A stretch of DNA of 21,111 bases, taken from IMG/VR virus record IMGVR_UViG_3300020419_000097, positions 1 through 21,111 of that record; one strand, written 5' to 3'. This stretch comes from a virus. Numbering within the stretch: position 1 is the first letter of the stretch; each line of letters starts with the position of its first letter. Both the position numbers and the translations under genes were made by a program. The notes under the pieces were generated by a model. The model did not search any database, was not told where the DNA came from, and worked only from the letters and a program-made list of their open reading frames with translations. Below, piece after piece: positions 9,104 to 18,212 of this stretch.

Positions 9104-10558
9104 TTAAGTTGGGAATGATGCGCCATATAAATCTATACGAGATCCTGATTTTAAGGTGTTGCCACCTAATTCACTAAACACTAAGCCATATACAGCAGTC
9201 GCATTTGCTGACGCTTCCTTTATATAACATTGACTTGTAGTACCTATATCACCAGTTGCTCCACCATCTTTTGTACAAGTGGACTGAGCATTACCAGCAA
9301 AATTATTTCCTGAAGAGTATTGAGCATTTCTAAATAAATACATTGTTCCCTCAACAACTACTTCCGTTGATGATGAAGTAGGGACACTACCAACAGCAAT
9401 AACTCCTGTGGCTGCATTAGAAGATTTATTTGCATTTGATGTTATAGCGCCTCCACTAGCTCCTGAAACATCTTGGTAGATAAATGTGCTGTTAAATATA
9501 TTACTTGCAGATACTTGGCTACCAGCTGAATCGACTAAACCAACTCTAAATGTTGTTAAAGTTGTAGCATCAAAGAGCAACCGATAAGTAGCCCACCATA
9601 CATCATAAGCAACAGATCCAAAAATAGTCATGGAATTTGCTCCACCACTTATAGCATTACCTACAGTTGACCATGCTCCAATTGTTCCAATATCAACAAA
9701 CTGTAAATTTCCAGAACTGTTCATTTGTAAAATTTGTTCGGAAGTTCCAGCAGAACTAGGGAATTGATAACCACCCGTGCCACCTATAGTAAAATCATCG
9801 GTAATTGTTCTATTAGCAACATGAAGGGCAGAAGACGGATTAGCTTGTCCAATACCCACTCTATTATTTGTTTGATCTAATACTAAAGTATTTGTATCAA
9901 AGTTTAATCCATTAGGAATAGAAACAGCATTACCATTAATTGTTGTTGTATCTCCAGAGGCATCGCCTAAAGTAGTATTTCCATTCACGGCTAAATTTGT
10001 AGTTACTGTTAAAGCTTGACTTGCTGTTACATCTTTAGAAAGAACAACACTTCCAGTTCCGTTTGGAGTTAGCACAATATTGCCGTTTGTATCTGTGGAA
10101 GAAATTGTGTTTCCTGTAAAATTAATGTTGTCTATATCTAAATCATCAGTAAATGTAAGAGCTGTATAAACATTAGAACCCGTGCCATACAAAATTGTTG
10201 TTTTACCATTTGGAATAGTGACACTTGTTCCTGTAGGCCCAGTTGTTCTTACTGCTATACTTTGTCCACCCGTTGTTCCATTTTTTACAACATATAATTT
10301 TTCTTGGGCTGGAATATAAATATTTGCTGTTGTTGCAATAGTTCCTTGAACATCAAGAACCATATTTCTTGATTGATCTGTTTGACCGTTATTTGTTGTA
10401 AGAGTGGTATCTCCAGAAATAGTTATAACTTCATAACCAGATATGGCTTGCTCTAATAAAGTTCCCATGTTTCGATTAGTTGTAGAACCCCATGTACCAG
10501 CTTGTTCCCCGGTAGCAATAAGTTCTAATCGTAAAGAATTTGAATATGTACTTGCCAT
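9104..10558 (-). CDS. Large tail fibre (484 aa)
   Basis: I choose the ATG at 10558 (MASTYSNSLRLELIATGEQA), which overlaps the upstream stop as TAATG, over an ATG 21 nt earlier inside the upstream gene. Residues 1-45 (GEQAGTWGSTTNRNMGTLLE) are a recognised N-terminal anchor in fibres of podoviruses and other phages. The shaft carries fibre motifs: NGNIVLTPNGTGSVVL (about 158-173) and NNRVGIGQANPSSALHV (231-247). Then comes the linker YQFPSSAGTSEQILQMNSSG (264-283), also found in altered form in the neighbouring fibre genes. The final ~190 residues are a beta-rich head ending in SRIDLYGASFPT. It most likely trimerises and contacts the host surface. Spacing to the nozzle gene is only 8 nt. The receptor cannot be told from sequence. 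Confidence 0.88.
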   Translation of the reverse strand: MASTYSNSLRLELIATGEQAGTWGSTTNRNMGTLLEQAISGYEVITISGDTTLTTNNGQTDQSRNMVLDVQGTIATTANIYIPAQEKLYVVKNGTTGGQSIAVRTTGPTGTSVTIPNGKTTILYGTGSNVYTALTFTDDLDIDNINFTGNTISSTDTNGNIVLTPNGTGSVVLSKDVTASQALTVTTNLAVNGNTTLGDASGDTTTINGNAVSIPNGLNFDTNTLVLDQTNNRVGIGQANPSSALHVANRTITDDFTIGGTGGYQFPSSAGTSEQILQMNSSGNLQFVDIGTIGAWSTVGNAISGGANSMTIFGSVAYDVWWATYRLLFDATTLTTFRVGLVDSAGSQVSASNIFNSTFIYQDVSGASGGAITSNANKSSNAATGVIAVGSVPTSSSTEVVVEGTMYLFRNAQYSSGNNFAGNAQSTCTKDGGATGDIGTTSQCYIKEASANATAVYGLVFSELGGNTLKSGSRIDLYGASFPT

Positions 10559-11571
10559 TACGCTGCTATCTCCGTCCAACCTGGGGTTTGCGAATCGTCA
10601 ATCACTTGCCACACATTAACAGCAGGTACTTGACCAGAAGAAATAAATCCTGTGGCACTCACTCCGGTTGGAGTAATAAGAGCTGTGCCTGATACATTTA
10701 CATCTCCAACTATACCAAAAACATTCATTCCAGAGTTATTTACTGGAATAAGTATAGATGCTTTAATTGTTACACTATTTAGTGCGGTATTTCCAATTAT
10801 TTCAGCATTATAATCCATATCAAGCATGAAGCCCATGCCTGGGTGGTTTGCACAATAGACATACAGTTGTGGTGTAGAATCAGTAAGAGTAATTTCTACA
10901 TAAGCTCCCGGATTACCAGCAACTCCATTAACTGTTACTCCTGTTGTATATTCCGTTCCTCCTCCATGCGTGCCATCTGCTGTAGTAGAGAATCGTAAAG
11001 GATGACTTCCTGTAGAAGAATCTGATAAATCAAAGCGATAGGTAAATGGAGGATGAAGACTATCAAGTGTAGTCTGCATAAAGTAGTTTAAGTAATAAAC
11101 ATTACCACTACCACCGTTAGCAACTGTCACATTAAATGTTTCATCGCCTCTTGGTTTAGCTATAACATTACCCGCAACAACCGTTTCTTGCCCTAAATGA
11201 GCTGTTGCAGAAACTCCAGTTACTTCAGCAGTAATCGGTAAGACCGCCTCTACTGTCCCTAACTCTGCTGTCATTAGAAGGTTAGTGTTATTAACGGGAA
11301 CAAGAATACCTACAAAGACCGTTTCGTTACCTAATTCAGCATTTGCCGATACACCCGTTGGGAAGACTATGACGCCAGCTCCCGCATTAACCGTGCCGAT
11401 AGCTCCAGTTGCCTGAACACCCGTAACCTCAAACACCATGTCAAATTTAGTTGTAACAACTCCAAGGCTAGTTGTTCCGGCTACGCCTGTAGCGGATACA
11501 GTTACATTGACTGGCCCTCCTCCTGAAGTGGAGAAAGCGTCTTGTGCGTATGAGTCAAAACCAAATGCCAT
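10558..11571 (-). CDS. Tail-associated repeat protein with cupredoxin-like domain
   Basis: The 337-residue product has three parts. Residues about 20-135 carry degenerate beta repeats of the type TGVSATAxLGxETVVxG. Residues about 140-255 form a cupredoxin-like domain with the complete ligand pattern of a type 1 copper site: His190 in GSHPLRFSTTADGTHGGG, then Cys240, His243 and Met246 in YVYCANHPGMGFM. Residues about 265-310 return to the repeats (ILIPVNNS echoing ILVPVNNT). The end, VWQVIDDSQTPGWTEIAA, is a motif I associate with marine phage structural proteins. The protein sits between the fibre-chaperone-like gene and the large fibre, so a virion tail role is likely. Whether it really binds copper is unknown. 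A weak ribosome site AGGATA precedes the ATG. Confidence 0.78.
   Translation of the reverse strand: MAFGFDSYAQDAFSTSGGGPVNVTVSATGVAGTTSLGVVTTKFDMVFEVTGVQATGAIGTVNAGAGVIVFPTGVSANAELGNETVFVGILVPVNNTNLLMTAELGTVEAVLPITAEVTGVSATAHLGQETVVAGNVIAKPRGDETFNVTVANGGSGNVYYLNYFMQTTLDSLHPPFTYRFDLSDSSTGSHPLRFSTTADGTHGGGTEYTTGVTVNGVAGNPGAYVEITLTDSTPQLYVYCANHPGMGFMLDMDYNAEIIGNTALNSVTIKASILIPVNNSGMNVFGIVGDVNVSGTALITPTGVSATGFISSGQVPAVNVWQVIDDSQTPGWTEIAA
10642..11502 (-). repeat. Degenerate protein repeats flanking the cupredoxin-like insert
   Basis: At the protein level, units of the type TGVSATxxLG occur around residues 24, 50, 72, 100 and 118, and again near 302, on both sides of the cupredoxin-like domain. 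A longer unit, ILVPVNNT (89-96) and ILIPVNNS (273-280), also recurs. At DNA level they are diverged. The arrangement suggests that the copper-type domain was inserted into an existing repeat array. Confidence 0.55.
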
Positions 11572-12091: not shown

Positions 12092-13024
12092 TTATACAAC
12101 AGCCGTGGGTTTAATTCTGCATTTTAAAACAGCACTCAGCCACACTTGATTGTTGGCGTCACTTGAACTGTATCCTTGTCCATTTAATCTAAATCCGCCA
12201 AATTCTCCAGCCCATGTGTATGCATTAGAGGTAGACCACGTTGTGTTTCCTCGATATGGCATTTTAGCGCCACAATACCAGCTTGGGCCATAATCCCAGC
12301 TGTTACTATAAGTATAATATCCATCATGCCATACTCTTTGATAGGCTCCAGGCGCACATTTTACGTGCAGTCTTCCACTAGCTTGTCCTATTTGGTTATT
12401 ACTATTTGTCGCATACAGATAAGGGCCAGATGACCATTGATTTGTTTGTCCAGACCATGGAGTAGAATTAGAGCTACTAGCGGTTGTATTTCTAGACCAA
12501 TTGGAATTACCTTCCCACTTATTATTTGTTGCTGCTTGGCTTTCATATTGATCTCCAATTCCAGATGAATTGCCATTAGTACAACCATGAGCTGTGCCAG
12601 CTCTGTTTAAAATCATAAAGAAACCTTGTTGTCCTGAACCCTGATCGCTATTATTATAAAAAGTAAAATCTAAATCGAGCCACCTCATATTTGCTTGAGC
12701 TAAATAATTTGTTTGTATAGCAGCAGGTAAATTCCAAATTCCTAAATTCCATCCAAAATAATCATTAGCACTGTTACTAAAATTAGAATTTCCTACAGCA
12801 TCAGCGCCATTATTGTAGGTAGAATCAATATAAACTGTTGTTACCATAGGAGTGCCAGCATCAGTTACATAAAACTCACAAGGCGTTGTTCCGGCAGAAC
12901 TAAAAGTTAAATTTCCATTATTATCAAGATAACCCTCTGCGGTAGCGCTAGGGCGTGCTGAAGGGAGTGTCATATCAGCACTACCTGAAAGCGTTCCTAA
13001 TTTATTTGTAGCAAGTGTCGACAT
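12092..13024 (-). CDS. Tail fibre-like / receptor-binding paralogue C (310 aa)
   Basis: This is the last of three short tandem fibre-like genes. It opens with MSTLATNKLGTLSGSADMTL (1-20) followed by PSAR and DNNGNLTF, the same order of motifs as in its two upstream neighbours. The remainder is rich in Asn, Ser, Trp, Tyr and Gly (GNSNWSRNTT, NSWDYGPSWYCGAKMPY) and free of membrane segments or long helices, as in carbohydrate-binding beta heads. Three Cys residues lie in its second half. A good ribosome site, AGGAGA, precedes the ATG, and the gap to the upstream gene is only 9 nt. I infer a receptor-binding or fibre-tip role. Sequence divergence from its paralogues is high, so the exact ligand may differ. 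Confidence 0.65.
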   Translation of the reverse strand: MSTLATNKLGTLSGSADMTLPSARPSATAEGYLDNNGNLTFSSAGTTPCEFYVTDAGTPMVTTVYIDSTYNNGADAVGNSNFSNSANDYFGWNLGIWNLPAAIQTNYLAQANMRWLDLDFTFYNNSDQGSGQQGFFMILNRAGTAHGCTNGNSSGIGDQYESQAATNNKWEGNSNWSRNTTASSSNSTPWSGQTNQWSSGPYLYATNSNNQIGQASGRLHVKCAPGAYQRVWHDGYYTYSNSWDYGPSWYCGAKMPYRGNTTWSTSNAYTWAGEFGGFRLNGQGYSSSDANNQVWLSAVLKCRIKPTAVV

Positions 13025-13033
13025 TTTTTCTCC

Positions 13034-13870
13034 TTATGTTTTAGTAATACCCCAAAGTTGAATATTTCCCTGCCATTTATAACTACTATTAGTATAAAAT
13101 TTAAATCCATCAGCAAATTGAGTATTGGTTCGAGTGCTGTAAGGTTTTTGAAGGTAATAATTAGAATACATTTGATAACCGTAACTGTATTGATACCAGT
13201 CACCATTACCATTAACGTGAGTCCAATTCATAGCCATATCTGGTTCACAGAAGTGTCTTAACCCGGCTCCATTGTAATACCTCATTTCACCGTAAATACC
13301 TGCTCTCCAAGGATAGGTACTAGTTTGAGTTGTAGACATATCAAATTGCGCGCTATATGTATCAGCAGAATTGCCCGTTCCTATAACACCACTTGTAGTA
13401 AATTCATAAGTATTAGCGCTTCCTGTGCCTCCATAAGGGCCATAACTTGTACTACTACTATCGCTATAATTCCAACCTGCATTATATAAATTACCATTAG
13501 AGATATTAGTGCTTCCGTTTAAGGGAGCTATATAGAGATACTGCCCTGAACTTGAAGTGCCATTAGAACCATGAATATCAAATAGTATTTTATACATATA
13601 TATATCAGAAGCGGATACAGACGATCCGGAAGATATTGGAACATCAATCTCTGTCGCTAAAGCATCTTGCTCTACAACATTTAAACATACCCACCCTGTT
13701 TCACCAGCGCTATTTGTCAAAGTATTAAATGTTGCAGTTGATCCAGACTCCGCAGTCATCGTTCCATCCGTGTCTACCTGAACTGCTGTATTTGTAGAGG
13801 GCAAAGATGTAGGAAGTTTTAAAGGAGCTGATCCTGTTAAACTTTGTATTTTTTCTGTTCTTACCGTCAT
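13034..13870 (-). CDS. Tail fibre-like / receptor-binding paralogue B (278 aa)
   Basis: The protein starts MTVRTEKIQSLTGSAPLKLP and continues with VDTDGTMTAESG, matching the linker motif of the other fibres (LPxxxPxxxxxxxxDxxGxxx, about residues 17-41). The C-terminal part is Ser/Tyr/Asn/Gly-rich and ends WQGNIQLWGITKT; this 'G-x-I-x-L-(W/Y)-G' ending also appears in the 484-aa fibre (SRIDLYG), which links the two families. It lacks a long shaft, so it may attach to another fibre or to the tail by its short N-terminus. A ribosome site AGGAT overlaps the stop of the upstream gene. I infer a receptor-binding role from these features and the position. Confidence 0.68.
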   Translation of the reverse strand: MTVRTEKIQSLTGSAPLKLPTSLPSTNTAVQVDTDGTMTAESGSTATFNTLTNSAGETGWVCLNVVEQDALATEIDVPISSGSSVSASDIYMYKILFDIHGSNGTSSSGQYLYIAPLNGSTNISNGNLYNAGWNYSDSSSTSYGPYGGTGSANTYEFTTSGVIGTGNSADTYSAQFDMSTTQTSTYPWRAGIYGEMRYYNGAGLRHFCEPDMAMNWTHVNGNGDWYQYSYGYQMYSNYYLQKPYSTRTNTQFADGFKFYTNSSYKWQGNIQLWGITKT

Positions 13871-13878
13871 ATTATATC

Positions 13879-14751
13879 CTATGTTTTAGTTGGATTAAGG
13901 AAAGAGTATGTCCAAAACAAACCCTCATTAATGTTATTACCATTCGTATCATAAAAATCAAGTTGAGTAGCCTGATTCCATGTTTGTCCATCACTATTCA
14001 TATAAAAATCACTAAAATTCTGAGTAAAATAACAGCTATAATTACTAAAAGTTCGATCATTTCTGTATGATATTTGAGAAATCATTCTAATCATACCTTT
14101 TCTACTTATATCTCCAGCTCCACTGTTTTGAGTAGGCGTTAAGCAATAAATATAAACTATACCACTAAGCAATCCAGCTCCTGTCCACCCAGCAGTTTTT
14201 GTAAATCCTTCATCGCTGCTTAAACTTCCAGAGGCTATGCTATAACTATAATTCAACTTAAAGCCGTTAGAACTCGCATTGCTGTTACTATTTACATAAC
14301 TTCCATTACCTGCATTATAAGAGTCTCGTTTTTTATAGGATTGTCTAAAATTACTATCAAGGATAGCAGTGCCACTAGAATCTTTTAATTTAATGGTAGG
14401 ATGAGAATAATCATTACCTGAATTGTTATCAAAACACACTCCCGCAAATTCTAATTTTGACCAAGCAATATTATCAACATCACTCGTATTATCAGGTGTC
14501 AAACTTAGGTTAACGGTTGAAGGTGTAGAGACAGTATTATTTACCCTTACCTTATCGCAAAATCTTTCACCAATAACAGATGGTGTACTTCCTGAACCCA
14601 TTTTATCACTAGAAACACCGCCTGTTTTGTATTGCCAAACCCCACTGCTAGTAGATTGCAGTGTAGATTTGGAAGCGGGATAGGTAGTCGGAAGAGTAAA
14701 ATCTTCTCCACCTGGTGTACTTATCTTATTTGTTTTTATTAACGATGCCAT
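13879..14751 (-). CDS. Tail fibre-like / receptor-binding paralogue A (290 aa)
   Basis: The first residues, MASLIKTNKISTPGGEDFTL, then PTTYPASKSTLQSTSSGVW, show the same N-terminal layout as paralogues B and C. The body is Ser/Asn/Tyr-rich beta sequence with few charges (YSYSIASGSLSSDEGFTK, SQISYRNDRTFSNYSCYF). It ends NPTKT. The ribosome site is a weak AAAGGTAA, after a 48-nt gap behind the 552-aa fibre. Its stop region shares ACTAAAACATA with paralogue B, which hints at duplication or recombination at gene ends. A role as an adhesin head is inferred. I do not recognise a catalytic site such as a depolymerase. Confidence 0.65.
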   Translation of the reverse strand: MASLIKTNKISTPGGEDFTLPTTYPASKSTLQSTSSGVWQYKTGGVSSDKMGSGSTPSVIGERFCDKVRVNNTVSTPSTVNLSLTPDNTSDVDNIAWSKLEFAGVCFDNNSGNDYSHPTIKLKDSSGTAILDSNFRQSYKKRDSYNAGNGSYVNSNSNASSNGFKLNYSYSIASGSLSSDEGFTKTAGWTGAGLLSGIVYIYCLTPTQNSGAGDISRKGMIRMISQISYRNDRTFSNYSCYFTQNFSDFYMNSDGQTWNQATQLDFYDTNGNNINEGLFWTYSFLNPTKT

Positions 14752-17235: not shown

Positions 17236-17883
17236 TTAAGTCACCTTTTGTCTTATTATTGTTGAACGGTATTCATCTGTACGATTACGCCCCTCTCCAA
17301 GATTTTTTACCCTAGACAGCGCTTCCATATAGCGATCATTATATAGTTTTATTAAATCCGGCTCACCTTTTAAAAATGTGTAAGCCTCAACTAATGATCC
17401 ATATAATAATGCGTTTTGAGCATTAGTACCAAACCAAGATGTTCCATCTGTAGATGTAGTTATGGAAACAGGCTTGTAATAATAATGCAATTCTACTTCA
17501 TATGATTGATCCGGGGTGGGTGAAAGTATAAAAGTATTTTCATCCCATAAAGAATAATATTTAGGCATTCCTCGTGTGGTGTCAGGATCGGGATCAAATG
17601 TTTGTAAAAAATTAACATCTTTGTTTAAAAGAAAATGATGTGTTCCACTAGAAACAATACTTAAACTATAGGTAGATAAAAAATCATCAGGACTAGAAAG
17701 ATATTTATTGTTAGCTGTGGTATTACCCGTAGAATTTTTTCTATCTAATGGTAAATCTGATTCGCTAAATATTCTTTGTTCAGCATTTTGTATAAAATTA
17801 TCTAAATTAGCAACAAAGGTTGTTCCTGAATCTTCTACAAAATCTTGTATAGCTGTTTTTAATGTTGTGTATGTGTATGCCAT
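17236..17883 (-). CDS. Head-tail adaptor protein (SU10-adaptor-like)
   Basis: The 215-residue protein opens with MAYTYTTLKTAIQDFVEDSG and contains FVANLDNFIQNAEQRIFSES (23-42), typical of the helical core of ring-forming adaptors in short-tailed phages. A beta region follows, including TRGMPKYYSLWDENTFILSP, where 'P-x-Y-x-x-x-x-x-x-x-x-x-P-x-P' precedes VELHYYYKP; this is also characteristic. The C-terminal helix ALLYGSLVEAYTFLKGEPDL is the usual packing helix. Such proteins form a dodecameric ring between portal and nozzle. The gene lies in the connector block and its start overlaps the zinc-ribbon gene's stop as TAATG. Family assignment is from memory of motifs. Confidence 0.8.
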   Translation of the reverse strand: MAYTYTTLKTAIQDFVEDSGTTFVANLDNFIQNAEQRIFSESDLPLDRKNSTGNTTANNKYLSSPDDFLSTYSLSIVSSGTHHFLLNKDVNFLQTFDPDPDTTRGMPKYYSLWDENTFILSPTPDQSYEVELHYYYKPVSITTSTDGTSWFGTNAQNALLYGSLVEAYTFLKGEPDLIKLYNDRYMEALSRVKNLGEGRNRTDEYRSTIIRQKVT

Positions 17884-18212
17884 TATACTACCACCGTTAT
17901 ACTACCTAATTGTCCATTTAAAGAATTAGTTCTAAAAGCATGACCAATTAAATCTTCTTTTGAATTAACAAATCCAGGGTTTTGAGTTCTTACCACACCT
18001 TCACCAGCCTCTACATCAATGCTAGGTCTGGGTTCATATAGTGCTTGTGGATCTACCGTATTTGTAGGTATTTCCAATTGTGGTTGTTTAGGCGAATAAC
18101 ACTCTGGACAAGCCTTCCAGTTATTCCATTGTTTTTTTAATTGATGTAATTTGTATCTTTGACCACAAATATCACATATAGCGAGTGCAAATTTTCCAAG
18201 AGCATAATTCAT
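17883..18212 (-). CDS. Zinc-ribbon-like small phage protein (109 aa)
   Basis: The N-terminal half carries two CxxC pairs, CDIC (Cys13, Cys16) and CPEC (Cys35, Cys38), separated by 18 residues including a Trp-rich basic stretch (LKKQWNNW). This is the layout of a structural zinc ribbon. A Pro-rich tail follows with DPQALYEPRPS, and a short Gly/Val end (GQLGSITVVV). Proteins of this form lie between connector genes in many podovirus-like genomes, as here between the gp4-like factor and the second adaptor. Both ends overlap neighbours as TAATG. A role in connector assembly or virion structure is inferred; DNA or RNA binding is not excluded. Confidence 0.78.
   Translation of the reverse strand: MNYALGKFALAICDICGQRYKLHQLKKQWNNWKACPECYSPKQPQLEIPTNTVDPQALYEPRPSIDVEAGEGVVRTQNPGFVNSKEDLIGHAFRTNSLNGQLGSITVVV

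Follow-up and report, generated by a model that had tools for sequence, protein, structure and literature searches.

The window analysed here, the whole stretch of 21,111 bases of the IMG/VR virus record IMGVR_UViG_3300020419_000097, covers part of a tailed phage's structural region with its genes on the minus strand, and its capsid protein shares approximately 66% identity with the capsid proteins of Pelagibacter phages HTVC023P and HTVC027P. An ATG-started open reading frame at 10558..11571 (minus strand) encodes a protein of 337 amino acid residues, a probable virion protein of the tail region, which we call the carrier protein. According to its translation, the N-terminal flank (residues 1-136; 11164..11571, minus strand) contains TGVxAT/LG-type repeats, and the C-terminal flank (residues 257-337; 10561..10803, minus strand) contains one TGVSAT repeat and the conserved end NVWxVIxDSQTPGWxEIAA. 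Between them lies a predicted cupredoxin-fold domain (residues 137-256; 10804..11163, minus strand), delimited by profile boundaries, the AlphaFold model and Foldseek matches to PDB. A preliminary description of this DNA had given the 337-residue frame and the codons of four putative copper ligands, H190, C240, H243 and M246, all of which are exact. It had also placed the domain between two blocks of TGVSAT repeats: repeats are present on both sides, but "two blocks" is generous for four N-terminal units (TGVAGT, TGVQAT, TGVSAN and TGVSAT) and a single C-terminal one (TGVSAT).

Homologues of the carrier gene were found by tblastn in 20 viral-contig loci, and in L001-L019 the gene layout around it matches that of the window. 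The PHROG tail-fibre families and the genomic context indicate that the 337-residue carrier is likely a tail protein; this label is indirect, since the PHROG matches stem largely from the shared domain itself, and we infer the virion location of the window's own protein from the position of its gene. Structure prediction of the full-length carrier, on 15 alignment rows, gave a pLDDT of 32. Nearby, three adjacent minus-strand genes (12092-13024, 13034-13870 and 13879-14751) encode proteins with similar starts (Lys/Thr-Gly ... LPT/SxxP ...) which are rich in Ser, Thr, Asn and Tyr and resemble paralogous fibre or receptor-binding proteins; the PHROG scan of the window proteins gave no match for the 12092-13024 product.

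The tblastn search with the carrier protein also gave matches in 12 phage records, all marine; in isolated phages, the matched region is centred on residues ~137-256. The domain is recognised by the signature YRFDQSDSSNxxHPLRFST ... GxxGAYxEI ... LYYYCxNHSGMG. Neither the window protein nor its family showed anything significant in Pfam, NCBIfam and PDB sequence searches. Concerning the copper-protein family PF00127, the window protein gave no match, and 8 of the 121 domain copies in a set thinned to less than about 90% identity gave matches that stay below the gathering cut-off (best E 0.06). The PROSITE type 1 copper signature PS00196, whose pattern is taken from PMC517927, was found in none of the 121 copies; in relation to this pattern, the domain lacks the Pro/Gly before the second His and mostly has Asn there. 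The databases miss the domain because its scores fall under the Pfam, NCBIfam and PROSITE thresholds. Matches to PHROG families 30742, 693, 27200, 708, 677 and 6005 were obtained for all or most of the 121 copies; however, the names of these families describe whole carriers (tail fibre, baseplate, virion structural or unknown) and none of them denotes a copper-type domain. Weak matches of the domain to carbohydrate-binding modules and antibodies were treated as chance.

The tertiary structure of the domain was modelled with AlphaFold2 on an alignment of 114 sequences, from which rows of annotated phage records were excluded. The model is a confident beta sandwich of nine strands, with a pLDDT of 91.2 and a pTM of 0.85, and together with the Foldseek results it agrees with the eight-stranded Greek-key beta sandwich of cupredoxins. 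H190 is just ahead of a middle strand (model residues 57-60), as in cupredoxins, C240 closes the penultimate strand (model residues 101-105), and H243 and M246 are in the loop that leads to the final strand, which is the type 1 layout of a His before strand 4, a Cys ending strand 7, and a His and a Met on the next loop. Among the best 30 Foldseek matches in PDB, 26 have a cupredoxin fold, and the top nine are multicopper oxidases and an azurin. The matches also include azurins re-engineered with CAAHAAM and CTPHPFM loops, which have the same C-x2-H-x2-M spacing. The E-values are modest (0.006-0.03, with 0.006 for the best) and the TM-scores are around 0.5. In the database of predicted viral structures (BFVD), the domain shows matches down to an E-value of 4e-18, including tail-fibre-like proteins of P-SSM2. 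Three giant-virus entries named "beta-sandwich protein" (A0A481Z6J5, A0A481Z7Q7 and A0A481YVH3, from Pithovirus and Marseillevirus deep-sea sediment assemblies) show a weaker fold likeness.

Antibody domains appear further down the Foldseek list, one viral relative in BFVD is named immunoglobulin domain protein, and the weak carbohydrate-binding-module matches mentioned above point in the same direction, namely to a plain Ig-like or carbohydrate-binding beta sandwich without metal, in which the Cys/His/Met pattern arose by chance. In the PDB matches listed, nevertheless, antibody domains rank lower than cupredoxins, which are the best fold matches, and the ligand residues provide a second kind of evidence against a coincidental pattern.

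The predicted type 1 copper site is formed by the N-terminal ligand H190 (11002..11004), the Cys ligand C240 (10852..10854), the second His ligand H243 (10843..10845) and the axial ligand M246 (10834..10836), all encoded on the minus strand. The corresponding residues are conserved in 119, 119, 119 and 120 of the 121 thinned copies, respectively, and of the 103 columns scored in these 121 rows, those of the four ligands all rank within the nine best conserved. The patterns used to retrieve homologues, in the viral as well as the cellular searches, held no ligand residue. In total, 177 domain copies were found in 161 sequences; 156 are distinct and 151 of these cover all four ligand positions, with H/C/H/M in 148. 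Full viral copies show this set without exception, the axial Met included. The three exceptions read YDYR (L143), YDFG (L145) and FSQM (L158), so that three or four ligands are lost together, and all belong to flavobacterial surface-type proteins which also have an intact copy. These ligand-lost copies (L143 3998-4321, copy 1 of L145 and L158 4598-4930) are natural ligand-free controls. A reverse search in viral contigs used the Cys/His/Met loop alone, as a DNA pattern for YCxxHxGMGG; each of its 82 matches falls within the domain, and the upstream His is present in 80 of the 80 aligned rows that extend to its position.

On these alignments, the ligand pattern is far beyond chance. Joint retention and joint loss of the four residues point to a metal site, since such behaviour is unexpected for four independent structural residues. 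For the same reasons, near-invariance and joint loss, the readings as a coincidental motif and as a plain Ig-like sandwich were rejected; the latter we regard as highly improbable. The expectations of the preliminary description held on each of these points: the predicted fold is that of a cupredoxin, its ligand set is complete, and the residues do not vary freely among homologues. Taking model and alignment together, it is very probable that the domain combines a cupredoxin fold with a type 1 ligand set.

Profile comparisons were used to relate the domain to annotated families. The flavobacterial protein L164 is a PF00127 member (28.3 bits against a cut-off of 21.2), and L164 and its kin L165 align with the domain profile with an hhalign probability of 94%, all four ligands (H, C, H and M) being in register. 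For pseudoazurins the probability was 77%, and for two multicopper-oxidase contrast sequences 0.5%, although the latter are themselves cupredoxin-fold proteins and no clean negative control; all these comparisons are one-to-one, and their E-values are not database E-values. H190, C240 and H243 align in register with the ligands of PF00127 members. The sequences of L164 and L165 (HPFYIKT ... YYYQCSAHNGMYG) are close to the phage HPLRFST ... LYYYCxNHSGMGG, and their domain also sits in a large surface-type protein; they differ in a shorter link between the two ligand regions and in passing the PF00127 cut-off, unlike the phage domain. Furthermore, the domain profile finds L196-L198, which are divergent relatives from bacteria, with E-values of 7e-11 to 9e-8. 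Over its cupredoxin-like region L197 passes PF25489 (At5g54830-like) with 27.5 bits against a cut-off of 27, so this family is a further distant relative; in contrast, only 3 of the 121 phage-type copies match PF25489 (best E 0.0047). Since these bridging sequences (L164, L165 and L196-L198) tie the domain to PF00127 cupredoxins, it is placed, at the level of predicted fold and profile similarity, in the cupredoxin superfamily and outside PF00127. The bridges to PF00127 with ligands in register also count against the plain Ig-like sandwich.

The nature of the metal is a separate question. Phage proteins are synthesised in the cytoplasm, which offers zinc but little copper, and sequence cannot give metal identity; the site may hold zinc, or Cu(I) only, purely for folding, the type 1 label being right in form only. 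This is the main chemical rival. On the other hand, type 1 copper sites in cupredoxin folds classically use Cys/His/His/Met (PMC517927), and the profile neighbours are annotated copper proteins. We consider another metal unlikely, and would expect the domain to bind copper in vitro.

Searched by alignment, viral contigs gave at least 592 stretches related to the domain, and assemblies of bacteria and archaea gave 51 loci. The domain is present in 182 of 50,697 phage records, nearly all named for Synechococcus, Prochlorococcus, Pelagibacter and marine Methylophilales, so that a segment which the preliminary description had mentioned for other marine phages is indeed widespread among them. Carriers include tail fibres, baseplate-type and other virion structural proteins, and zinc-ribbon proteins; several are annotated as virion structural protein or tail fibre, and some have tandem copies of the domain. 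In L016 (53-1420) and in L018 and L019 (4989-6356), a complete domain is nested in a loop of another and both ligand sets are full. The window also encodes a 109-residue zinc-ribbon-like protein (17883..18212, minus strand) with weak Zn-ribbon Pfam matches and a CxxC...CxxC N-terminus, which is devoid of the domain. Among its homologues in the fetched loci, 34 of 52 open reading frames have one or two copies at the C-terminus, a proportion which is not a natural frequency because the loci were fetched by the domain. As far as these gene comparisons reach, in related phages the carrier varies and the domain persists.

Cellular carriers are lipoprotein-like proteins and very large Bacteroidetes proteins, one of them an open frame of 6085 residues. 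Lipoproteins and giant surface proteins, as these relatives appear to be, would display the domain extracellularly too. Six marine bacterial lipoprotein-like proteins (L117, L120, L122, L144, L147 and L148) have a signal with an ACGGGG or NCS lipobox and the domain at their end; some contain cadherin-like repeats, and they are unannotated candidate surface cupredoxins.

The carrier gene of the window (10558-11571) was compared with L009 (263-1267). Protein identity is 96% in the domain and 73% in the flanks, DNA identity 95 and 81%, and dS 0.13 and 0.41, respectively, which perhaps reflects an exchange confined to the domain. In six relatives the flanks have a higher dN than the domain, whose lower divergence suggests that it is under stronger constraint. 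In a tree of the domain copies, 59 of the 118 inner branches are weak, and the tree does not show whether the domain was first in viruses or in cells; parsimony on this tree counted eight changes of label between viruses and cells.

Small blue copper proteins (amicyanin, pseudoazurin, plastocyanin and azurin) share with the domain the predicted fold and the order His...Cys-x2-His-x2-Met. In amicyanin the ligands Cys92, His95 and Met98 give the same C-x2-H-x2-M spacing, and the His-to-Cys distance of the phage domain, 50 residues, is inside the range of 38-66 residues known for cupredoxins (PMC517927). The phage domain differs in a Pro after the first His and in the long conserved GxxGAYxEI segment, and also in being part of virion or surface proteins: electron carriers of this type are free periplasmic or lumenal proteins with a redox partner, whereas here the domain belongs to a protein of the phage structural region, and no redox partner turned up in the window proteins that were scanned. 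Cyanophage plastocyanin (petE) is likewise a cupredoxin encoded by marine phages, but it is a free photosynthetic electron carrier from a metabolic gene and not part of any structural protein (PMC3037559). Virion proteomes have been published for S-SM1, S-PM2 and Syn9 (PMC3037559).

The full ligand set of redox cupredoxins, axial Met included and never relaxed in viral copies, makes a redox role the main functional rival: the site would be redox-active or redox-sensing, and Cu(I)/Cu(II) cycling at the host surface or in the periplasm would control adsorption or DNA delivery. The window proteins scanned include no electron-transfer partner for such cycling, the carriers differ too much to share one fixed redox partner, and a Pro follows the first His instead of the Asn which tunes amicyanin (PMC12723479). 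Such control seems unlikely to us. The essential restriction of the domain to marine phages would also suit a copper lure, in which copper on the virion would engage the host's receptors for metal uptake or be delivered to the host; for iron, the Ferrojan horse hypothesis proposes a comparable marine-phage link, as cited in PMC5797145. The hosts are diverse, however, and no link to copper-uptake genes was found. Furthermore, the metal of a type 1 site is buried, which leaves no chelate for an outer-membrane receptor, and we judge this use of copper very improbable. The analysis thus gave no support to the sensing and metal-uptake uses that the preliminary description had suggested.

A parallel for display on the particle is given by the Ig-like domains of T4 Hoc (PMC10385173), which are also beta-sandwich modules that recur on unrelated virion proteins, and for which surface display is a likeness that the phage cupredoxin domain likely shares. 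They differ in having an Ig fold without a metal site, while the domain described here has a predicted cupredoxin fold and conserved predicted metal ligands; it occurs on unrelated virion proteins as a decoration module does, but its fold is not that of an immunoglobulin, cupredoxins outranking Ig domains in Foldseek.

The explanation that we favour, with moderate confidence as a whole, is a copper-stapled cupredoxin module, displayed on the surface for attachment or other particle-surface contacts. A domain of a marine cupredoxin subfamily would have been grafted into virion proteins and would move between them as a module; the variety of carriers points to a portable surface module rather than to a part of one fixed machine. 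On the particle it would be shown as a rigid beta sandwich for attachment or surface contacts, as Ig-like domains are elsewhere, and copper held by H190, C240, H243 and M246 would tie two loops and stiffen the fold. A point against this reading is that a purely structural role does not obviously call for such strict retention of all four ligands. Surface display of the domain is likely, and a role in attachment or surface contact is plausible. Phage structural proteins fold in the cytoplasm, nearly without free copper, and for this reason the site would probably be loaded after lysis, from the lysate or seawater. Such late loading is feasible because cupredoxins fold without metal.

The domain is a real, conserved and widespread feature. 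Cupredoxins and cyanophage plastocyanin were already known; the new element is a cupredoxin domain as a virion module, and no report of such a domain in phage virion proteins was found in the open-licence literature. It provides a candidate function for PHROG tail families of unknown role, with an annotation that is absent from current libraries. If the reading is true, a redox-protein fold has been re-used as a virion decoration module which is common to bacterial surface lipoproteins. Dissolved copper is scarce in the ocean and is mostly bound by organic ligands. Were the site occupied, copper proteins would sit on the particles of very many ocean phages, a concrete link between metals and viruses in the ocean, which until now has been discussed for iron. 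It is conceivable, although rather doubtful, that type 1 (blue/green) copper, bound to the virions of a large proportion of marine tailed phages, affects infection through its occupancy or redox state; if so, their virions would be copper metalloparticles and part of the ocean's copper-ligand pool.
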